Below, one piece after another: positions 5,945-14,452 of a stretch of DNA of 22,348 nt. The notes under the pieces were generated by a model. It saw only the letters and a list, made by a program, of their open reading frames with translations, made no database searches and had not been told where the DNA came from. This stretch comes from a virus, in the IMG/VR virus record IMGVR_UViG_3300006789_000196, positions 1 through 22,348 of that record. One strand, given 5' to 3'. Within the stretch, counting starts at the first letter, position 1. Each line of letters begins with the position of its first letter. Position numbers and translations under genes: made by a program.

Positions 5945-5971
5945 ATTATGCAGCTAGCTTAAAATTATCAA
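5945..5971 (-). promoter_or_regulatory. Putative sigma70-like promoter of rpsU
   Basis: On the minus strand, TTGATA (5966-5971) is followed either by CATAAT after 15 bases or by TAATAT after 17. The second -10 ends eight bases before the ATG at 5934. The -35 overlaps the stop codon of the upstream membrane-protein gene. Confidence 0.45.
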
Positions 5972-6327
5972 GTGGAATTATCTGGATTCACCGGACGTTT
6001 ATTTTGTAACTGTCTCATTAAATTATTAATTATCATGGATGCTTCTTGAAGATTTCCTTCTAAAGTCTCTACTCTTTGTTGCTGACGCCGTGTTAAATAT
6101 TCTTGAAAATTTATAAATTTATCCATCTCTATAACTAATTGGTTCTTTTCTTGTAAGATATTGGACAGATATTTCTTATTTTCATAATGCTGTGAATCTT
6201 TGTTAATTATAATCATTATGAAGATAATTGATGTTATTAGAACTGCAATTATTGATGTGCAATGTCTTGAAAGCCATGAATTAACAGTAACTCGAGCGAC
6301 ATTTACAATCTCTCTGAGAGAGGCCAT
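5968..6327 (-). CDS. Small membrane protein with coiled coil, spanin-like topology
   Basis: The 119-residue protein has a basic N-terminal stretch, one strongly hydrophobic segment at about residues 24-42 (SIIAVLITSIIFIMIII), then a long charged helix (43-110) rich in Gln, Glu, Lys and Asn with coiled-coil character. By the positive-inside rule the N-terminus is cytoplasmic and the coiled coil periplasmic. This is the layout of an Rz-type inner-membrane spanin, which acts in outer-membrane disruption at lysis. No overlapping Rz1-like lipoprotein frame was noticed, so the lysis role is only a suggestion; another phage inner-membrane protein is equally possible. A CATAAATA late-promoter-like box ends five bases before the ATG, consistent with late expression and an essentially leaderless mRNA. 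Confidence 0.65.
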   Translation of the reverse strand: MASLREIVNVARVTVNSWLSRHCTSIIAVLITSIIFIMIIINKDSQHYENKKYLSNILQEKNQLVIEMDKFINFQEYLTRRQQQRVETLEGNLQEASMIINNLMRQLQNKRPVNPDNST

Positions 6328-6367: not shown

Positions 6368-7150
6368 TTACACACCAGTTGTCTGATTCCATGCAGAAAT
6401 GTGCAATCTGGTCATTCCTATATAGCCATACTTTTTTGCCATTTGTAAGCAAAACTCTGTTCTCTCATGAAAGTTATCTTGATTATCCAGCCCGGGCATC
6501 ATAAGAACCCTATGTGGAGGGATTTTTAACGGTTCAATAAAATCTTGCTGGATTTCCTGCATATCTAACTCATCACTGATAACAAATTTGAACCAATAAT
6601 TGGAATGAGCCATTATACGTTTTAGAGATAATGCTTGAAACCTCTCAACATATGAATGGCCGCTATTCGCGAGCTTTACTGAGCAGTTAATTTGATCTAA
6701 TTCTTCAAATAGATCGTCTTCGATATACTGAGTACCGTTTGTCTCGATCTCGTTATATAAATTACACCCTTCATACTCCTCGTAATACAAATGTCGGAGG
6801 CAGCTGACAATATCCTTCTGATGCTTTCGGAGAGTAGGCTCACCACCAGTCCATACTAGATGGACTCTCCCTTCTAGCACCCAATCTAAAATACCTTCCT
6901 TCTTCCAATCATCAATCAGTACTTGTAAACTTGTTTTTTGTCCACATCTCCACACTGCCTCGCTATCACACCACCATGTAGCCTTACCTTCCTTCATTAA
7001 GGATCCGGATTTACCGCCACACATTAAATTACAGCCTTTTAATCGAATAAAATATGATGGGTACCCTGTTGTTACTCCTTCACACTGGACTGAGTAGAAA
7101 CTCTCACTCAGTGATAGTGATGTTTGTATAGCTGATAATTGTTCTTCCAT
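6368..7150 (-). CDS. queE: 7-carboxy-7-deazaguanine synthase (radical SAM)
   Basis: QueE converts 6-carboxytetrahydropterin to 7-carboxy-7-deazaguanine with SAM, an iron-sulfur cluster and magnesium, the third step of the preQ0 pathway. The 260-residue protein shows the family landmarks: ESFYSVQCEG (residues 16-25) at the substrate-binding N-terminus, FIRLKGCNLMC with C40 and C44, a third cluster cysteine C61 in WWCDSE, the SAM-binding GGEP (102-105) and ETNGT (136-140). C44 and C61 are separated by 16 residues instead of the usual two, an insertion also seen in other QueE branches. The start overlaps a small upstream frame by 47 bases; no other ATG precedes the conserved core. It lies downstream of queD on the same strand, so the two are probably co-expressed. 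Confidence 0.93.
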   Translation of the reverse strand: MEEQLSAIQTSLSLSESFYSVQCEGVTTGYPSYFIRLKGCNLMCGGKSGSLMKEGKATWWCDSEAVWRCGQKTSLQVLIDDWKKEGILDWVLEGRVHLVWTGGEPTLRKHQKDIVSCLRHLYYEEYEGCNLYNEIETNGTQYIEDDLFEELDQINCSVKLANSGHSYVERFQALSLKRIMAHSNYWFKFVISDELDMQEIQQDFIEPLKIPPHRVLMMPGLDNQDNFHERTEFCLQMAKKYGYIGMTRLHISAWNQTTGV

Positions 7151-7262
7151 TTTTTTTGTGTTTAATCTTAGATTTATTATTACTTTTCCAATCTACTTCG
7201 TCGAAATTTTGTTTAAATTTCTTAGAAAAGCAATGACGGGGTCTATCTCCTTTACCTGGCAT
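7104..7262 (-). CDS. Small basic phage protein (52 aa), MPGKGDRPR type
   Basis: A 52-residue frame starts three bases after the queD stop and runs 47 bases into queE. Its N-terminus, MPGKGDRPRHCFSKKF followed by NFDEVDW, resembles a recurring family of tiny phage proteins that begin with a GDxPR motif and a short aromatic/acidic segment, then a Lys-rich tail. That family has no known function. It fills a gap of 115 bases that otherwise holds nothing. Only a weak GTGGA lies upstream, so it may depend on translation of queD. The C-terminal part that overlaps queE looks unconstrained. I consider it probable but not certain. Confidence 0.5.
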   Translation of the reverse strand: MPGKGDRPRHCFSKKFKQNFDEVDWKSNNKSKIKHKKNGRTIISYTNITITE

Positions 7263-7265
7263 AAA

Positions 7266-7901
7266 TTATATCCACTTTGTACCGAAGTTCCAGTTATGGT
7301 TTCGAGGATCATCAGCAGCTTTTGGATTACGGGTTGGATCCTCCGGCGGAGGTTCCGGCGTTGGTGTTGGATCCGGTTTGGGCGGAGCTTCTTCTAAAGG
7401 TTCAGATAGAGGTGCGTCCTTGGACGTCATATGTTCATCTTCTCTCCTATCATTAATATAGCATGCAGAATTATCATCATGTTTGTATTGTTCCCATACT
7501 TCTACCCTCTCTACCCAGCACCGATCGTTAGTAATCCTTCTAACTAACTCATCCCCAACACCGGCGCAAAACTCCGCTATTCGCTCAATACCGGTTCCGT
7601 TAGGCATGACTCTCAAATCACAGGCATCTGCTTGCGCTAACTGCTCAAATACGCCTAGCACCGGGTCATCAGCTGCAATGCATGTAGTATGGTCGAATTG
7701 ATTTCTAAGTACATCTCTTAGTTCTTGTAGACCTCCAAAGTCAACAACCCAGTTATTATCATCAAGCTCTTTAGAACCGAACCAATATTTAGCTGTTAAA
7801 TTGTAACCATGAATAAATCTGCAATTCGAATTGGATGCTTGAGGTTGCCTAAACGTACAACTGCCTAATTCAAAAACTTTCGTACTATAAAAATTTGACA
7901 T
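7266..7901 (-). CDS. queD: QueD-like 6-carboxytetrahydropterin synthase with Pro-rich tail
   Basis: QueD makes 6-carboxytetrahydropterin from dihydroneopterin triphosphate, between FolE and QueE. The core (about residues 1-150) carries CRFIHGYNL with C27 and H31, WVVDFGGLQELR (51-62), FDHT with D70 and H71, and a C-terminal VERVEVWEQ strand, at positions close to those of E. coli QueD. The zinc site is unusual: HGH is HGY here, and the first histidine segment reads LGSCTFRQ, a version I associate with a QueD-like subgroup. Residues after about 155 form an acidic, Pro-rich tail (PTPTPEPPPEDP) absent from ordinary QueD. ATG 7901 is chosen over 7928 because it matches the family start and sits six bases after a TATAAT. 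Confidence 0.85.
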   Translation of the reverse strand: MSNFYSTKVFELGSCTFRQPQASNSNCRFIHGYNLTAKYWFGSKELDDNNWVVDFGGLQELRDVLRNQFDHTTCIAADDPVLGVFEQLAQADACDLRVMPNGTGIERIAEFCAGVGDELVRRITNDRCWVERVEVWEQYKHDDNSACYINDRREDEHMTSKDAPLSEPLEEAPPKPDPTPTPEPPPEDPTRNPKAADDPRNHNWNFGTKWI

Positions 7902-7907
7902 GAAATG

Positions 7908-7935
7908 ATTATAACATGAAATAAACATAAATCAA
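7908..7935 (-). promoter_or_regulatory. Putative sigma70-like promoter of queD
   Basis: On the minus strand, TTGATT (7930-7935), a 16-base spacer and TATAAT (7908-7913) end six bases before the ATG at 7901. Transcription would be expected to begin at about the start codon. It is the mirror image of the folE promoter. Confidence 0.6.
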
Positions 7936-7945
7936 CATTTGATTT
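7929..7945. repeat. Inverted repeat joining two divergent -35 boxes
   Basis: AAATCAA-CAT-TTGATTT is a perfect palindrome with 7-base arms and a 3-base centre. Each arm contains the -35 hexamer TTGATT of one of the two divergent promoters. It may be a shared operator or simply the result of two identical -35 boxes placed back to back. Confidence 0.6.
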
Positions 7946-7966
7946 CATGCGATGCGTGTTTATAAT
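7939..7966 (+). promoter_or_regulatory. Putative sigma70-like promoter of folE
   Basis: TTGATT (7939-7944), a 16-base spacer and a perfect TATAAT (7961-7966) lie upstream of the ATG at 7974, with seven bases between -10 and ATG. This decides the start: the upstream in-frame ATG at 7947 lies inside the promoter. The mRNA would be leaderless or nearly so. Confidence 0.65.
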
Positions 7967-7973
7967 GTTATGT

Positions 7974-8618
7974 ATGAGCGTTGATGAATATAAACTACCA
8001 TATGCTAATGGGAATATGCCTAGAACCTGCCAAGAAAAGGAACAGATTATTGACCGGGCTGCTTATCATTATGGTAAGTACATGACTGCCCTTGGGTTTC
8101 AGTGGGAGGACGATCCGAACAGTGAAGATACACCGAGAAGAGTAGCAAAAGCTTTTGTAAATGACTTAGCTGAAGGGTGTTTTACTGATCCTCCCAAAAT
8201 TACAGCATTCGATAATGTAGATAAATATGATGGTTTAGTATTTCAAGGTAATATTAAAGTAAATTCTTTCTGTTCACATCACCATTTACCGTTTATTGGG
8301 CAGGCGCATGTATCATACATCCCAGGTAAGGATGGGAAGGTAATTGGATTGAGTAAGATTAACCGGATTGTTGAGTGGTTTTCACGTAGACCACAGGTTC
8401 AAGAGAACTTAACCATGCAAATTCATAAACATATGGATGAAGTATGTGAAGGTAACAAGGGAGTAGCTGTATTAATATCAGCGAACCACCTATGTGCGTG
8501 TGTTAGAGGTGTTAAGCACGACTCAACTATGAAGACAGCGCGCATGTCCGGTGCATTCCTCGATTCAACAGATTTAACTCGGCAAGAATTCTACGATTTT
8601 GTTAGGGATTTAAAATAG
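7974..8618 (+). CDS. folE: GTP cyclohydrolase I
   Basis: FolE opens GTP to 7,8-dihydroneopterin triphosphate, the first step of both folate and 7-deazaguanine synthesis. The 214-residue protein contains the family core: EDTPRRVAKAF, CSHHHLPFIGQAHVSYIP with the zinc cysteine and histidine, VIGLSKINRIVEWFSRRPQVQE, and HLCACVRGVK with the second zinc cysteine. Length and order match FolE type IA, so it should be active. The start at 7974 is set by the promoter. It is divergent from queD and convergent with the adenylyltransferase-like gene, overlapping its 3' end by 17 bases. Beside queD and queE its likely role is supplying 7-deazaguanine, probably for nucleic-acid modification, although queC and a DpdA-like transglycosylase are not in this window. 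Confidence 0.95.
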   Translation: MSVDEYKLPYANGNMPRTCQEKEQIIDRAAYHYGKYMTALGFQWEDDPNSEDTPRRVAKAFVNDLAEGCFTDPPKITAFDNVDKYDGLVFQGNIKVNSFCSHHHLPFIGQAHVSYIPGKDGKVIGLSKINRIVEWFSRRPQVQENLTMQIHKHMDEVCEGNKGVAVLISANHLCACVRGVKHDSTMKTARMSGAFLDSTDLTRQEFYDFVRDLK

Positions 8619-9162
8619 CCTTTACTTTGGCTATATCCTCCGGGGTTAAGACTTCAATAGGGAGACAATCCCATACCTTATCGCAAATACCATCCCGGGA
8701 TACTGTACCAGATATTCGCCCAAATTGATCTGGTATTTCAACAATCTCAGCATTACCGTATATTAATTCCCCAAATTCATCTACGGATGTATTGATAGCA
8801 GACCAGCGCTTTTGATCTTCAATACCAGCTCCAAGATAAAAAAAGTCGTTTGGATGTTGTTTAATGTGCTCATACACGGCTCTCACAGGATTATCTGGTA
8901 AAATAATCTGAAAATCTACGTTGATATACTTGCTATATACTTCCCAAATCTGCTTAGACTGGTCCGAAGTGAAGGCGACTTCACCGGTAATGTCATATCG
9001 CTCTTTATGACCAACAAATACAATAGCAGCGGTAGCACTATTCGAATTAATAAGGTAACGTAAAGCAGCGAGATGGCCTTTGTGCGGTGGTTTAAAGCCT
9101 CCGGGGAGGAGCGCGACTTTCTGCCCGGGCATCTCTAATAAGAATTGTCTAAATGTTAGCAT
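8602..9162 (-). CDS. HxGH nucleotidyltransferase (NMN adenylyltransferase-like) with capsid-targeting-like N-terminus
   Basis: After a 10-residue leader, the 186-residue protein shows the HIGH-superfamily nucleotide-binding loop: ALLPGGFKPPHKGH, with H27 and H30. A conserved C-terminal ISGTVSR (150-156) matches the ISxTxxR loop of NMN/FMN-type adenylyltransferases. It should transfer AMP or CMP to a phosphorylated small molecule; NAD synthesis from NMN is the closest match, but the substrate is not readable. Its first residues, MLTFRQFLLE, resemble the T4 internal-protein signal MKTYQEFIAE that the gp21 protease removes after LxE or IxE. That suggests packaging in the head. It is last in the operon, coupled to the ligase-like gene through TAATG, and converges on folE. 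Confidence 0.8.
   Translation of the reverse strand: MLTFRQFLLEMPGQKVALLPGGFKPPHKGHLAALRYLINSNSATAAIVFVGHKERYDITGEVAFTSDQSKQIWEVYSKYINVDFQIILPDNPVRAVYEHIKQHPNDFFYLGAGIEDQKRWSAINTSVDEFGELIYGNAEIVEIPDQFGRISGTVSRDGICDKVWDCLPIEVLTPEDIAKVKAILNP
8611..8634 (-). terminator. Weak candidate intrinsic terminator
   Basis: On the minus strand, ATAGCC-AAAGTAAA-GGCTAT forms a 6-bp hairpin followed by TTTTA. It lies just inside the last codons of the operon's final gene, between convergent genes. The stem is short, so this is tentative. Confidence 0.25.
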
Positions 9163-10487
9163 TATAGCTGGGCTAATTTAGCGTACCTTCCTCCTACGCC
9201 TTGTACAATAAACTCTCCTGTTATTTTAACTGGCTCGTTATCACCGGTTAATTCACTATCATAAATTGTTATACCTTCATGCTTAGCGATCCTAATCTCT
9301 GTAGACGGGTCAGACGGGTCTGGATGGAATGCAACAAAATCTCCTAACTTAGCTTCTTCCATCTTAGATAGAATTTCATGGCCTAATTCTCGTAATGTAT
9401 GCCATACCATTGCGCCTTGGATCGCTAGCTCGACATTATGTTCAGTCTGTTCATAGGTATCTCCAGCGTATACTGAATCTAAAGGTATCATTTTATTTAA
9501 AACAAGTAAATAATTTTTCTTACTAACAGCTCCAATAGGCTTATTAGCATGTATAATATTTTCACCACCATATTCACCAGCTGGTACTTCACGTGACGGT
9601 GTAAGATTAGTAGTCTGAAGTTGTTTCACATCACGTATCGTATTAACATACGAGAACAGTGATATTGAAGGGCTTTCTCTATCCGGGGATACAAATGCCG
9701 CAAATTGGGTGGCTAATACACCTTCTAAATCGATGGGCATTAAATTACCAGATTCATCTCGATGTGGTCTGATGTCCGCGAATTTATGATGTACTTGCAT
9801 CTTATACATTGACTCAGCATATGGGTTAACAATTGTAGCAATGTTATCTAAGTGCTTTGATTGAGATTCGGTAAGAGGTATTGTATGCTCGGATCGGCTG
9901 CCTGATGCTTCCTTTTCGAAAAAGTTTAATTTATGTAAAGCTATAAAATCAAAATCATACCCAATTACATTTTGTGCTCCGGCTCCTTCCGGTCTTTCTA
10001 GCCATTCAGCATCAATACATCTACCATATGCTCCGGATGGATTTTCCCATTTTGTATTAATAAGCTCTAAAGCGACAAGATCATCATATAATTGCTTCTT
10101 AACATCAGGATGCTCGAAAATATTAAATAGCTTCTCATAGGTACTCGCTAACCCAGGATTTGCTGGGAAGCGGTTTACCAAGTTAGGTATAGTAGCTCCA
10201 ATTATATCCCATTTTGTACTTTCAGATTTACCACTAGTACCTCTATCCGCGCAGAATATACCATCCTCATTCAATCTAAATGAACAATTATTACCGTCTA
10301 ATTTAGTGGTCATATTGATATCATGAGGTTCCCCAGAATGTAGTTTATCTCTAAATTTGTAAAAAAATTGTATTAAATCGTTTCCGCTCTTTACTGCTGG
10401 TACATCCATAGGATGGTGCATATGTTTTTTTTCTAGCAGAACATCATCATAACCTTCATTTAATACGAATTGTCTAAAGCTTCTCAT
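9162..10487 (-). CDS. Ligase-like covalent nucleotidyltransferase with capsid-targeting-like N-terminus
   Basis: The 441-residue protein carries features of the ATP-dependent DNA/RNA ligase superfamily: motif I TTKLDGNN (K62, D64, G65), an ADRGTSGK segment at 80-87 where ligases carry a conserved arginine, a motif III-like DAEW (159-162) followed by YDFDFIALH (177-185), and a possible motif IV EGV (255-257). K62 would be the AMP-accepting lysine. Motif V is less clear (SKKNYLLV is a candidate). It would join or adenylylate nucleic-acid ends; DNA or RNA preference is unknown. The N-terminus MRSFRQFVLNE has the (L/I)xE form of T4 capsid-targeting peptides. It overlaps the upstream gene by ATGA and the downstream one by TAATG, so all three are translationally coupled. 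Confidence 0.6.
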   Translation of the reverse strand: MRSFRQFVLNEGYDDVLLEKKHMHHPMDVPAVKSGNDLIQFFYKFRDKLHSGEPHDINMTTKLDGNNCSFRLNEDGIFCADRGTSGKSESTKWDIIGATIPNLVNRFPANPGLASTYEKLFNIFEHPDVKKQLYDDLVALELINTKWENPSGAYGRCIDAEWLERPEGAGAQNVIGYDFDFIALHKLNFFEKEASGSRSEHTIPLTESQSKHLDNIATIVNPYAESMYKMQVHHKFADIRPHRDESGNLMPIDLEGVLATQFAAFVSPDRESPSISLFSYVNTIRDVKQLQTTNLTPSREVPAGEYGGENIIHANKPIGAVSKKNYLLVLNKMIPLDSVYAGDTYEQTEHNVELAIQGAMVWHTLRELGHEILSKMEEAKLGDFVAFHPDPSDPSTEIRIAKHEGITIYDSELTGDNEPVKITGEFIVQGVGGRYAKLAQL

Positions 10488-12004
10488 TTTAATATCATCG
10501 ATACTCCTTTATTACGCTCATCAACATTTAGGTTATTTGTTATCCGAGGGTTCTGGACCTGCTTCCATACCTTTATAAAATTCTCCCGTAAACTACCACC
10601 AGTAAAGTCAAAGGCAATTGCATCTAGCGTGCTAGCGTTACATAATAAGAGATATGGAAAATTGTGAACTGATTGATAGGAAATCATCTGAATAGTTGAA
10701 ACGAGATTAACAAGCACCTCTCGTTTTTTCATATTCGCCCCTCTAAGTGTTTTAAACATCTCTGGAGTAACAACTTTGTTAATTGCTTCTGTCAACTCTC
10801 CTATCTGGAGTTGCATAGGTTCAGTTCTAACTTCAGCTAATGCTGTTATAATATCGCGGCGTTCAAGACCATGATTTACTAACATAAAATTCTGTAAAGT
10901 TTTAGTCCATGAAAGGGGAGAGTCGCTAGGTGGTAGTTGTTTTTTTCTAATTTTATCTAGATCAACTTTTTGATGTATTAGATCATCAATTAAATTTGTT
11001 ATGCCTTTCCTCTTAGGATCTTTCACTGCGTTAACAAATAACTTCTTATCATACTGACCGGCGAATATCATTGGATTATCATCATAAATTCTCACTAGCT
11101 GTTGCTTCCACGGAGATGCCATTGTTTCCCATAAGCTCTGCGTATCATACGCTATACTGAAGAATTCTGGATCAGCAATTTTATCTCTCACATCTTGAAT
11201 TATCATCCTTTCAGCTTCAGGTACTATCTGAAAGATATGATCCAGCTTTGAAACGAGCATTTCTAATATCTTTGTAAAATTATCTTCAGCCTTTCTTATT
11301 TCTTCACCTAGCATAATGTCTTTACCAGATCTTCGGAGTATTTCCGGATATGTCTCCGTAATTTTATGCGTGTAATTAGATGTACCTAACCTACCGCTAT
11401 CGGATTTTAATTCTACTTCACCTAGTCCTGCTACTTGTAAATCACCTACATCACCTTTAATAGCGTTTGTAAATAGTGAAAGGCATATCTCACCTGGACC
11501 GACTCCAACTACATTCGCAGCTGGGGCTACTTTCCATATTGCTTTAATTAAAGATTTTGGATTATTAGTAAACTTTAAATCACTTTTAAGCGCATCTAAT
11601 ATATTAAAAATTTTACCGGAGCGAATATGTGAATCTATTGCTGTTAATCTATCTGATACCTTTCTATCAGTAAACTCTCTAAATTTCTCCGGGTCTATCT
11701 CTACGTCATCAGCTTCAACAAGTTTATTAATAACTAGCTTTTTAACATCATTAACATACTCTAATCCTCCAGCATCTTCCCATCTACAGTGATCCAATAT
11801 CTTTACTAGTTCTTCATCCACTCCTCTAGGCCCACGTGTCAGTACTAATTTTTTAAGAACTTTATAATAATTATCATCAATTGTCCCTATCGGTTCTGCA
11901 GGGCTTTCGTCGGATGTTTTTGCATATATCTCTACTTCCCCCGGAGCTAATTCGTTTAGCACCTGAAGATTATAAACATCAGATATTGATTGAAACTTAC
12001 TCAT
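10484..12004 (-). CDS. PD-(D/E)XK nuclease-like protein (506 aa)
   Basis: I do not recognise a named family. Residues 166-207 nevertheless look like a PD-(D/E)XK core: VGVGPGEICLSLF (E172), then GDVGDLQV (D188) and GEVELKSDSGRLGT with E198 and K200. This E...D...ExK order is typical of restriction-enzyme-like nucleases. The remaining sequence is mostly helical and charged, without membrane segments. An N-terminal LNE at residues 16-18 could be a gp21-type cleavage site, though it is later than in classic targeting peptides. The stop overlaps the ligase-like start by ATGA. Its ATG is six bases after a TTAAATA late-promoter-like box. A nuclease beside a ligase suggests a joint role in processing DNA ends; this is inference. 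Confidence 0.55.
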   Translation of the reverse strand: MSKFQSISDVYNLQVLNELAPGEVEIYAKTSDESPAEPIGTIDDNYYKVLKKLVLTRGPRGVDEELVKILDHCRWEDAGGLEYVNDVKKLVINKLVEADDVEIDPEKFREFTDRKVSDRLTAIDSHIRSGKIFNILDALKSDLKFTNNPKSLIKAIWKVAPAANVVGVGPGEICLSLFTNAIKGDVGDLQVAGLGEVELKSDSGRLGTSNYTHKITETYPEILRRSGKDIMLGEEIRKAEDNFTKILEMLVSKLDHIFQIVPEAERMIIQDVRDKIADPEFFSIAYDTQSLWETMASPWKQQLVRIYDDNPMIFAGQYDKKLFVNAVKDPKRKGITNLIDDLIHQKVDLDKIRKKQLPPSDSPLSWTKTLQNFMLVNHGLERRDIITALAEVRTEPMQLQIGELTEAINKVVTPEMFKTLRGANMKKREVLVNLVSTIQMISYQSVHNFPYLLLCNASTLDAIAFDFTGGSLRENFIKVWKQVQNPRITNNLNVDERNKGVSMILK

Positions 12005-12010
12005 TATTAA

Positions 12011-12017
12011 TATTTAA
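12011..12017 (-). promoter_or_regulatory. Putative late promoter box TTAAATA
   Basis: TTAAATA on the minus strand lies six bases before the ATG at 12004, overlapping the stop codon of the upstream gene. The spacing matches the boxes before 1366 and 14120. The match to the late consensus is moderate, and part of it is forced by the TAA stop. Confidence 0.3.
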
Positions 12018-12340
12018 TGATCCTGCTTATCGACTGGTTCTTGCGCGACGAACATTCTATAAGTTTTTAATAAACCTTGATCACAATAGCCATCATCTTT
12101 TAGAAAAGCTTCTACTTGCTCTAAGTTTGAAGAATTTAGAATTTGTTTTACCTCTGCTGAATCTCTGGCTTTTCCATCATTCTTAATCATATGCCGGGCA
12201 ACTGATATCTTGAATTGATCTAAATTTGAATCATGACAGCTGCAATCATCGTCACTATTATCTTCTGCAGATTTTACTATTGTAACTGGAGTAGCATGCT
12301 GTGACATTAAGCTCGAGAGTATGTCATTAAAGTTTACCAT
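12014..12340 (-). CDS. Hypothetical protein, acidic with Cys cluster (108 aa)
   Basis: This 108-residue protein matches no family I know. It has a short amphipathic N-terminus (MVNFNDILSSLMSQH) similar in spacing to the targeting-like peptides of its operon neighbours but without the LxE site. An acidic DNSDDDCSCHD segment follows (residues 27-37), which could bind metal. A mainly helical C-terminal half (about 40-100) ends in a charged tail. The start overlaps the previous stop as TAATG, with a good Shine-Dalgarno AAGGA at 12347-12351. It therefore belongs to the same operon as the ligase-like and nuclease-like genes. A head-associated role is a guess from context. Confidence 0.6.
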   Translation of the reverse strand: MVNFNDILSSLMSQHATPVTIVKSAEDNSDDDCSCHDSNLDQFKISVARHMIKNDGKARDSAEVKQILNSSNLEQVEAFLKDDGYCDQGLLKTYRMFVAQEPVDKQDH

Positions 12341-12828
12341 TAGATATCCTTCGGTGGTAATTCAGATGCTGGTACGTCTCTACGACCTTCTTGCTTTTTA
12401 AGTATTGCTTCTAGCTTATCTCTAATAGCTCTACCTTGATCCGCTGTAAGTTCTCCATCTTCCATTTGACCGAGTAGTTCATTTATGGATTGTTGATCTT
12501 CCCATCCAATTTCTGTCGTCATAGCACGTGCTAGTAGTTCTACATAATCAAATTCTCCTTCTGAAGTCATAGGAGTTGGGTTGAGATCTGGCTCAGCTGG
12601 AGGTGCTGCTGGGTCTCCGACCATTGGTGCTGCTGGATCTTGTGCCATGGCTGGATCTATCGCGCCTCCGGGCATTGGTGGTGGACCTGCTTCCGGATCT
12701 CCGGGAACAGCCGGTTGCACTATAGCTGGTGGTTGATCTTGGCCAATATCTCTTGGCGGAGGTGGAGGTGGTAAATCAGCTTCTGGTAGAATGTGAGCAT
12801 ATTCATTTAATATATCTTGAAGTTTCAT
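12340..12828 (-). CDS. Pro-rich hypothetical protein with capsid-targeting-like N-terminus (162 aa)
   Basis: The protein has three parts: an N-terminal MKLQDILNE peptide, a long Pro/Ala/Gly/Asp-rich region (about residues 16-88) with repeated DPAAP units, and a helical acidic C-terminal part (about 92-150). The low-complexity middle is probably an unstructured linker. The first nine residues resemble T4 internal-protein targeting peptides and end in LNE, a plausible gp21 cleavage site. A Shine-Dalgarno AAAGGA (12834-12839) precedes the ATG, which overlaps the upstream stop as TAATG. No enzymatic motif is seen. It could be a head core or internal protein. The coding assignment is good; the function is unknown. 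Confidence 0.65.
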   Translation of the reverse strand: MKLQDILNEYAHILPEADLPPPPPPRDIGQDQPPAIVQPAVPGDPEAGPPPMPGGAIDPAMAQDPAAPMVGDPAAPPAEPDLNPTPMTSEGEFDYVELLARAMTTEIGWEDQQSINELLGQMEDGELTADQGRAIRDKLEAILKKQEGRRDVPASELPPKDI

Positions 12829-13124
12829 TAATATCCTTTCGGTTGACTGCTAGCTACAACTTTCTGTAATTGTGTATTTGCAGCACTAATATTTTTTTTA
12901 TGTGTATCAGCTTTAACTTGATCTAGTCTTTTCTTTTTACCTAATAATACCTTAGTCTTTTTTTCATCCGGCGTCAACTGTCGATCATTATTAGGATCAT
13001 TATCAGCATTCGCGTCAATTGCAGCAGCCGTACTATTCAATGCTTCACTCTCTTCTGGCTTCATCTCAACAATTATACCAGCCGCGACCATATACTTTTG
13101 TAAAACTTCATCTACTTTCCTCAT
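12828..13124 (-). CDS. Hypothetical small charged protein (98 aa)
   Basis: The 98-residue protein is highly charged, with an amphipathic N-terminal helix (MRKVDEVLQKYMVAAGIIVE), an Ala/Asn/Asp-rich middle and a Lys-rich C-terminal helix. No known family or motif was recognised. It is coupled through TAATG to the Pro-rich gene and is the first gene after a 62-base AT-rich gap on the minus strand (13125-13186), in which I see no convincing promoter. Its start lacks a strong Shine-Dalgarno. It may be a head or core component by association with the operon. Confidence 0.55.
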   Translation of the reverse strand: MRKVDEVLQKYMVAAGIIVEMKPEESEALNSTAAAIDANADNDPNNDRQLTPDEKKTKVLLGKKKRLDQVKADTHKKNISAANTQLQKVVASSQPKGY

Positions 13125-13186
13125 CTCATTAATTACTTATTTTTTTCTTAATAGTTTTATCATATAAGTATTATCTTTATTCAAAA

Positions 13187-13729
13187 TTAACTTATAATCA
13201 ACTGCTTATTTTCAATTTTTTCGAAAAAGTTCTTCGTAAGGAATTGTAGTCCGTATCTTTTACCGAATTTCTTAATCTTATTAAAGCTATATAAGGATTT
13301 CTTGCGAGTGTCTGTAAATTTATTCAGCTGATATTCAAGTTCTATTCGCTCTCCACTAGGGGTTTGGAGTACTTTCCTCATTACTTTAAAGTCATACGGT
13401 GATTCCCATATGTTGATAGGTAATAAGTTGTTCAATTTCTTCATCGTCTGTGCGAAGAATATAGAACTCTCTTCTTCTTTCATATATCCATCCAGAAATT
13501 TCACATCATGGTATGATACAACTTTATAGACTGACGTAGCTTCCTTAACCTCTGTACATATGTCCAGAATTAAATGGTGATATATAATACTTTTCAGATC
13601 TTTGCTACCTTTCTCCAAGGAAAGTTGATATTCATATATGTCATTAATGATTTTACGTTCAATATCCGGTAGAATTGACCTAATGTCAATGAGAGAGAGG
13701 TGAAATTTATCAATCTTTAGTCTTTTCAC
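13187..13729 (-). CDS. Hypothetical protein (about 180 aa)
   Basis: This frame encodes a basic, mostly helical protein with many Lys, Phe, Tyr and Ile; no motif or family was recognised. The start is uncertain. GTG 13729 is chosen, with a weak GGTAAG upstream, but TTG 13744 would also serve. With GTG the gene overlaps the GIY-YIG gene by 20 bases. Composition is similar to its neighbours, and the tight overlap suggests co-transcription with the GIY-YIG gene. The frame is long enough in this AT-rich sequence, with neighbours on the same strand, to be accepted as real. Confidence 0.6.
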   Translation of the reverse strand: MKRLKIDKFHLSLIDIRSILPDIERKIINDIYEYQLSLEKGSKDLKSIIYHHLILDICTEVKEATSVYKVVSYHDVKFLDGYMKEEESSIFFAQTMKKLNNLLPINIWESPYDFKVMRKVLQTPSGERIELEYQLNKFTDTRKKSLYSFNKIKKFGKRYGLQFLTKNFFEKIENKQLIIS

Positions 13730-14120
13730 GTGGTTTCTTACCAATTCTGCAGTTAATTATACCGTTGTAATACTGATTTGACAGTAAAACACCTAATTTA
13801 AATTGTAATTCAGCTTCATAATAGCTGAGCTCCCACTTATTATAACATAATCTCAGGATTTTAAAAGAAAAATTTTCCATTCCATGTTGCTCTATAGCTT
13901 CATTTAGGAAATTACTACTTCCAGTATAGGTTTTCCAATCAGATTCTTGTATAATGTGACGCTTATTACGTTTTCCCTTAAGAGGAGGCCGCTTTACAAC
14001 CTTAACCATTTGTTTTTTACCTATATATTTCCGGTTATCCGTAATATTAGTGATTTCATACACAAAACCATAGCAATCCTTAGGTATTTCACCATCATAT
14101 TGCCAATGACCCATGTCCAT
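13710..14120 (-). CDS. GIY-YIG nuclease-domain protein
   Basis: The 136-residue protein begins with a GIY-YIG type core: YGFVYEITNI (GFVY at 18-21) and RKYIGKK (31-36), then a conserved-looking DWKTYTGSSNFL, the LNEAIEQHG helix and a YYEAELQF segment that could supply the catalytic glutamate. GIY-YIG domains cut DNA in homing endonucleases, repair enzymes and restriction systems. There is no obvious DNA-binding domain beyond the core. It could be a free-standing homing endonuclease or a phage recombination/repair nuclease; I cannot separate these. A GTAAATA late-like box ends six bases before the ATG at 14120. The second ATG at 14114 is an alternative start. Confidence 0.7.
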   Translation of the reverse strand: MDMGHWQYDGEIPKDCYGFVYEITNITDNRKYIGKKQMVKVVKRPPLKGKRNKRHIIQESDWKTYTGSSNFLNEAIEQHGMENFSFKILRLCYNKWELSYYEAELQFKLGVLLSNQYYNGIINCRIGKKPREKTKD

Positions 14121-14126
14121 CAGGGA

Positions 14127-14133
14127 TATTTAC
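14127..14133 (-). promoter_or_regulatory. Putative late promoter box GTAAATA
   Basis: GTAAATA on the minus strand overlaps the stop codon of the upstream Lys-rich gene and ends six bases before the ATG at 14120. The arrangement is the same as before 1366 and 12004. Confidence 0.3.
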
Positions 14134-14426
14134 ATGGAATTGTTGAGATTTCTTCTTTGGATCGGGATTCCAGTACTTTCTTTCTTGGTTTTCCGCTTTT
14201 TCTTAGATCTTTTCCGGGATTTCTTGGATCTTTTGGCTTTTTTCTTAGAAACATCATCTCCGACGAATTTATCCGTACCGATATAGTTTGCTAAACGCTG
14301 ATCACCGGGATTCCATACACTCGCACCGGAAAATACACCATCCATTTGCGCGCCCGCGCCTAAAGCACTCACAACTGAGTTTTCCTCCAAGCACTTCAGA
14401 AAAATTTTTTCAAAACGGTTTGACAT
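14130..14426 (-). CDS. Small Lys/Arg-rich phage protein (98 aa)
   Basis: Residues 1-57 hold an N-terminal helix (MSNRFEKIFLKCLEEN) and a Gly/Ala-rich part with WNPGDQRLANYIG. Residues 58-84 are almost all Lys, Arg and Ser, followed by a short IPIQRRNL tail. The basic block would bind nucleic acid. The LEE near the N-terminus could be a gp21-type site, which with the basic tract would fit a DNA-associated head protein; this is a weak inference. No known family was recognised. It is divergent from uvsY, and a CATAAATA late-type box lies 18 bases before its ATG. That box overlaps the uvsY -10, so the two genes may be expressed at different times. Confidence 0.6.
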   Translation of the reverse strand: MSNRFEKIFLKCLEENSVVSALGAGAQMDGVFSGASVWNPGDQRLANYIGTDKFVGDDVSKKKAKRSKKSRKRSKKKRKTKKESTGIPIQRRNLNNSM

Positions 14427-14447
14427 TTCGAGATCTTACATTATTAT
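14420..14447 (+). promoter_or_regulatory. Putative sigma70-like promoter of uvsY
   Basis: A perfect -35 TTGACA (14420-14425), a 16-base spacer and TATTAT (14442-14447) lie 11 bases before the ATG at 14459. The -35 overlaps the start codon of the divergent gene. The expected leader is about five bases without Shine-Dalgarno. Confidence 0.5.
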
Positions 14448-14452
14448 TTATG
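14445..14452 (-). promoter_or_regulatory. Putative late promoter CATAAATA
   Basis: CATAAATA on the minus strand differs at one base from the T4 late element. It overlaps the -10 of the opposing early promoter and lies 18 bases before the ATG at 14426. It could drive the long minus-strand operon. Confidence 0.5.

Follow-up and report, generated by a model that had tools for sequence, protein, structure and literature searches.

A T4-like phage fragment carries an operon whose nuclease-like, ligase-like and adenylyltransferase-like proteins are probably capsid cargo, packaging in the virus head being the best explanation for the short leaders with which these unrelated enzymes begin. The fragment, a 22,348-bp environmental virus record derived from a bacterial virus, was analysed over its whole length and is referred to here as the window. 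In T4, the unrelated internal proteins IPI–IPIII and Alt, which are packaged and ejected, carry a leader ending in [L/I]xE that is cut by gp21 (PMC9026906, PMC3012670), and it has already been suggested that T4-like phages employ such capsid-targeting sequences for cargo of various kinds (PMC9026906). The T4 internal proteins, the capsid-targeting sequence and the occurrence of NMNATs in virions are therefore already known; the additions made here are the enzyme operon, a second leader type, a leader swap and an association between leader and virion proteome. The literature searched contained nothing that names DUF6267 or joins "capsid targeting sequence" with metagenomes, and no link between capsid targeting and cyanophages.

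Other genes of the window resemble gp46, gp47, gp55, UvsW, SegE, QueD, QueE and FolE. The minus-strand genes at 8602-14426 form one coupled block, and the coupling proposed in a preliminary description of the window is borne out by overlaps of 1–4 bases between neighbours, the sole exception being a 9-base gap from 12004 to 12014. The four leader peptides of that description all lie on the minus strand where it had placed them, and two further operon proteins have a comparable site (IVE and LEE). The features are as follows.

8602..9162, minus strand: adenylyltransferase-like protein (NMNAT/CTP_transf-like), 186 aa, with leader MLTFRQFLLE, then the catalytic GGFKPPHKGH
9162..10487, minus strand: ligase-like nucleotidyltransferase, 441 aa, with leader MRSFRQFVLNE followed by G
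10484..12004, minus strand: PD-(D/E)xK nuclease-like protein, 506 aa, with leader MSKFQSISDVYNLQVLNE and LNE at residues 16-18
12014..12340, minus strand: operon protein, 108 aa, with no clear leader
12340..12828, minus strand: Pro/Ala-rich protein, 162 aa, with leader MKLQDILNE followed by Y
12828..13124, minus strand: operon protein, 98 aa, with IVE at residues 18-20
14130..14426, minus strand: small basic protein, 98 aa, with a leader and LEE at residues 13-15
14445..14452, minus strand: CATAAATA, possible late promoter upstream of the operon, with one mismatch to TATAAATA

In the window alone, only one-mismatch matches to the late promoter occur near the operon; these are frequent by chance and not significant. 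In four relatives, the first operon gene is preceded at exactly 32 nt by an exact TATAAATA late-promoter box. A PADLOC search returned no defence assignment.

Six of the seven genes of the extended operon encode an [L/I]xE site within the first 20 residues, against 0.91 of 7 predicted from internal stretches of these proteins; elsewhere in the window the site is found in 2 of 17 genes (Fisher p=0.0013). The protein at 12014-12340 has no [LI]xE among its first 60 residues. The bare motif is also frequent at the N-termini of UvsW (24/30) and SegE (18/27), where it stems from the domain sequence itself, and it was therefore rejected as unspecific. Since it is a weak motif, the argument depends on how well the leaders are conserved, on where they lie and on the virion proteome test. 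A strict leader pattern, requiring hydrophobic residues at P7, P4 and P3 and E at P1 near the protein start, matched 2 of 26 window genes versus 0.1 expected from internal positions. As in the T4 capsid-targeting sequence, a short amphipathic N-terminal leader ending in [L/I]xE is present in the ligase, nuclease, Pro-rich and adenylyltransferase proteins of the window.

The names given to the enzymes are borne out at the level of motifs. The adenylyltransferase-like protein matches CTP_transf_like (PF01467) just below the cut-off (E=0.001, 19.7 bits against 21), and the active site typical of NMNATs and cytidylyltransferases, GGFKPPHKGH (HxGH type), is present together with ISGTxxR. Its homologues were found at 38% identity, and a scan of IMG/VR with an adenylyltransferase profile yielded 80 loci. 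Of 27 distinct homologues, 23 have an amphipathic leader such as MKTFKQFVTE, located 12–17 residues ahead of the active site, versus 3.7 in shuffled N-termini. In the ligase-like protein, the motifs KxDG, E161, EG and K are invariant in 10/10 homologues (19–31% identity), and the comparison with RNA_ligase (PF09414) gives E=0.12 and 13 bits against a cut-off of 27. The ligase model is of low confidence (pLDDT 66); a Foldseek search with it ranked 2hvr (T4 Rnl2) best at E=0.018 with a low TM score, which is not significant, and the leading matches are mostly ligases. Assignment of this protein to DUF6267 (PF19782) was rejected, with no Pfam match and profile comparisons at E=0.075 and 0.032 and a probability of about 1%. 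Searches of phage records with the DNA and protein of the window ligase and nuclease gave no useful match, and no relatives of the ligase were found in cyanophage records. The nuclease-like protein contains the PD-(D/E)xK catalytic signature E172...GD188...E198xK200, which is invariant in 28/28 homologues; a fold search with its model (pLDDT 76) gave no informative match.

The alignment of homologous N-termini proposed in the preliminary description showed that the leaders are kept along with the catalytic motifs. At the relatives' loci the strict leader occurs in 71 of 1193 proteins versus 5.4 expected, and the conserved leaders are located directly before catalytic domains whose active-site motifs are intact. 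The sequence [LI]xE-G (a hyphen follows the glutamate of the site here and below) is kept in 10/10 aligned ligase-like members, with E11-G12 invariant and L or I at P3, and [LI]xE is present at 11/11 ligase N-termini versus 3.4 in shuffled ones. The corresponding counts are 30/38 versus 14.6 in the nuclease family and 35/39 versus 16.5 in the Pro-rich family, and LNE-Y of the Pro/Ala-rich protein is retained in the relatives G005-G007. The amphipathic pattern is not enriched in control families (gp46, gp47, gp55, UvsW, QueD, QueE, FolE), while SegE and a gp2-like family exceed their shuffles, which counts against the cargo reading. In HTVC008M, a loose leader pattern gave 11 matches versus 10.6 expected, no excess.

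Furthermore, the leader is separable from the protein behind it. A second, longer leader type, xSLxDxYxxxxGKxxPxLPRQ...LxE, also exists. The ligases of two relatives, L018 and L055, start with a nuclease-type leader. The L055 ligase leader is identical to the nuclease leader of locus L028 at 18 of 28 positions, a similarity equalled in 0 of 20000 shuffles, and at the L018 and L055 loci no nuclease gene separates the Pro-rich gene from the ligase. Because the ligase carries the leader of the nuclease in these two relatives, the leader is a transferable module with an exchangeable body behind it. Independence of leader and body, a property of the T4 capsid-targeting sequence, is thus found both in the different folds and in the L018 and L055 swap.

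The preliminary description had called for a gp21 protease. No gp21 gene is present in the 22-kb fragment; among eight long relatives (89–162 kb records), Peptidase S77 of the gp21 type was found in seven and gp23 in six. The gp21 of the relatives starts ALRLIVE-T and their gp22 contains VLKE-ATKDILSE-E, and these sites (IVE in gp21; LKE and LSE in gp22) are in line with the L/I-X-E specificity published for T4 gp21 (PMC9026906). Cleavage after LxE or IxE, proposed for all the leaders, is likely for the ligase and the nuclease, judging from the enrichment of [LI]xE at their N-termini. It is not general in the adenylyltransferase family, in which strict [LI]xE occurs in 6 of 27 homologues, equal to shuffled sequences, and most leaders end in an FxE-like sequence.

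Virion proteomes of cultured cyanophages provide a test of the association between leader and particle. The strict pattern was fixed before it was applied to the S-CREM2 virion proteome (PMC10665884), where it is matched by 4 of the 13 non-structural proteins that were detected in virions and lie outside the tail block, versus 2 of 163 that went undetected (p=2.5e-4). The four matches are a SAM hydrolase (MKDFDSFLEE), gp13 (MKDLHSFLTE), a kinase (MKRFDAFLTEE) and a cytidylyltransferase (MKNFSSFLTEA). A Cas9-like virion protein of S-CREM2 was observed post hoc to contain RFASFMAE around residues 18-25. In S-SCSM1 (PMC9602691), the sole strict match is the virion-detected NMNAT (1/10 detected versus 0/205, p=0.047). 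A leader of the MKxFxxF[LF]xE type, matching the strict pattern, is present on 10/10 cyanophage cytidylyltransferases examined, and enzymes of the NMNAT/cytidylyltransferase type have been reported in virions of S-SM1 (PMC3037559) and of S-SCSM1 and S-CBWM1 (PMC9602691). The authors of the S-CREM2 and S-SCSM1 proteomes considered contamination possible, raising it as an alternative, and offered no targeting mechanism (PMC10665884, PMC9602691); contamination becomes less likely because the detected enzymes share a packaging leader. The leader is missing from several proteins detected in S-CREM2 and S-SCSM1 virions, indicating that it is not the sole route into the virion.

The targeting part of the capsid-cargo proposal is thus upheld by conserved leaders on unrelated enzymes, the swap, the relatives' protease and virion mass spectrometry of cultured relatives, whereas gp21 cleavage is not general for the adenylyltransferases. 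Since the start peptides mark particle-internal proteins in related phages, the enzymes are probably carried into the next host with the DNA. Like the T4 capsid-targeting sequence, the N-terminal leaders would attach to the core of the prohead, and the enzymes would thereby be incorporated next to the scaffold. Many of the leaders would then be cut after [L/I]xE by a protease of the gp21 type, and the freed nuclease, ligase-like and adenylyltransferase domains would be packaged together with the DNA and leave the head with it when the phage infects. Right after entry they may serve nucleic-acid end repair and the supply of NAD and nucleotides, perhaps against host defence; a proposed role in mending ends and providing NAD this early fits the enzyme types.

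A different fate after targeting is unlikely but retains some weight, namely that the leader brings the proteins into the prohead, where, instead of being injected, they help to assemble the head or package the DNA as core or maturation factors. Head morphogenesis is influenced by T4 IPIII (PMC9026906), and in relatives of the small protein at 14130..14426 the segment behind the leader resembles part of their own gp23 (E=4e-12, 2e-7 and 2e-6). Such a fate sits poorly with catalytic motifs that are intact in three unrelated enzyme families and with a nuclease that is dispensable in L018 and L055. It is improbable that the leaders are ordinary parts of the N-terminal folds, with coincidental [LI]xE, and the enzymes free late or repair proteins. 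The bare motif in UvsW and SegE and the virion-detected proteins devoid of a leader are consistent with coincidence, but one kind of leader precedes folds that are unrelated and has been exchanged between families, and it associates with virion detection in S-CREM2. Moreover, where DUF6267 and adenylyltransferase are fused, as in L003, the leader is located at the start of the fusion and is absent from the internal domain boundary, and the ligase leader is predicted to be disordered (residues 1-21, pLDDT <50). Direction of the leader to the tail, the baseplate or a host site instead of the head is very improbable: virion detection by itself carries no proof of position inside the head (PMC10665884), but [LI]xE fits the published gp21 motif (PMC9026906), comparable N-terminal sites occur on gp21 and gp22 of the same relatives, and only 1 of 37 structural and tail-block virion proteins of S-CREM2 has the strict leader.

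Beyond packaging of the operon proteins, a broader proposal can be advanced tentatively, with somewhat less than even confidence: environmental T4-like phages may have in common a transferable system of two leader types, used to load the capsid with a first-minute kit of enzymes. This kit would comprise a nuclease, an RNA-ligase-like repair enzyme, an enzyme that makes NAD and, among relatives, a retropepsin-like protease, a SAM hydrolase, a kinase and a Cas9-like nuclease, and leader sequence alone would predict injected effectors across genomes. If true, injected phage proteins could be found by sequence alone, and many unknown phage genes would become testable candidates for proteins that affect the host ahead of the phage's own gene expression. 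The recurrence of NMNAT-like and other enzymes in cyanophage virion proteomes, where contamination was left as an alternative, would also be explained. Both the [LI]xE-G leader and that of the nuclease type are candidates for use as tags with which enzymes could be loaded into phage heads.

Comparison with known systems places the operon as follows. The cyanophage virion NMNAT/cytidylyltransferases (S-SM1 T4-GC190, S-SCSM1 ORF91, S-CREM2 gp154) are of the same nucleotidyltransferase type as the window adenylyltransferase and carry the same MKxFxxFLxE-type leader, and the S-CREM2 cytidylyltransferase gene adjoins gp55/UvsW, as in the window. The cyanophage enzymes are distant in sequence, and their relation to the window adenylyltransferase is confined to the domain (hhalign, 23 columns around the active site, E=2e-6). 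DUF6267 has in common with the window ligase the HxxH...KxDG...EG...K pattern and the position before the adenylyltransferase gene, but most of its cyanophage members examined lack the leader, and there is no significant family match either. Clade 1 of the Far-T4 phages, uncultivated T4 relatives, has been described with a T4-like core and queuosine and GTP cyclohydrolase genes (PMC4360716), and the accessible part of that description mentions no packaging signal. The T4 proteins IPI–IPIII and Alt are like the window proteins in their short N-terminal leader ending in [L/I]xE on otherwise unrelated proteins. The differences from T4 are that the cargo here consists of nuclease, ligase-like and NMNAT-like enzymes encoded in one operon beside gp55/UvsW, and that the second, longer leader type accompanies the short one.

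The small basic leader protein at the upstream end of the proposed capsid-cargo operon has relatives in other virus records:

Window 14130-14426, minus strand: small basic protein with leader
L111:1345-1575: relative
L118:12639-12896: relative
L132:14399-14647: relative

In these relatives, a segment resembling part of gp23, the major capsid protein, directly follows the leader (E=2e-7, 4e-12, and 2e-6), and a Lys-rich tail forms the end; this small protein possibly originated from gp23. The leader of the nuclease type is fused to ligase-like proteins at two loci (L018:3153-4418 and L055:3422-4729), where the nuclease gene is missing.

A retropepsin-like PF05618 (Zn_protease) protein with the leader MKTFKNFFIE (L111:7153-7551) adjoins the cargo operon in the relative G006, and similar proteins occur in G005, G007, and G008. 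The L066 protein (L066:8138-8824) begins with MKTLKQYIKILNE followed by GG and carries a nucleotidyltransferase-like GSTG...DIDIVV stretch, with no Pfam match; gp156 of cyanophage S-CREM2 (L140:10013-10726), which has a PF01909 domain, was detected in the virion (PMC10665884). In the 462-kb uncultured phage LR756500 (L138:3948-10422), MKFxxxYEEFLNE-like leaders occur on several adjacent proteins, one distantly related to the window ligase. The virion of S-CREM2 was also reported to contain a Cas9-like nuclease; this protein (L139:7704-10313, minus strand) carries a leader-like stretch, RFASFMAE, approximately 17 residues into the protein.

Within the operon, a SegE-type GIY-YIG homing endonuclease gene (13710-14120) keeps its position in relatives. 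The stretch 5968-6327 encodes a 119-aa protein with one membrane-spanning stretch and a coiled coil in a spanin-like layout, and QueE-, QueD-, and FolE-like genes (6368-8618) adjoin the operon; such 7-deazaguanine pathway genes are likewise described for Far-T4 clade 1 (PMC4360716).
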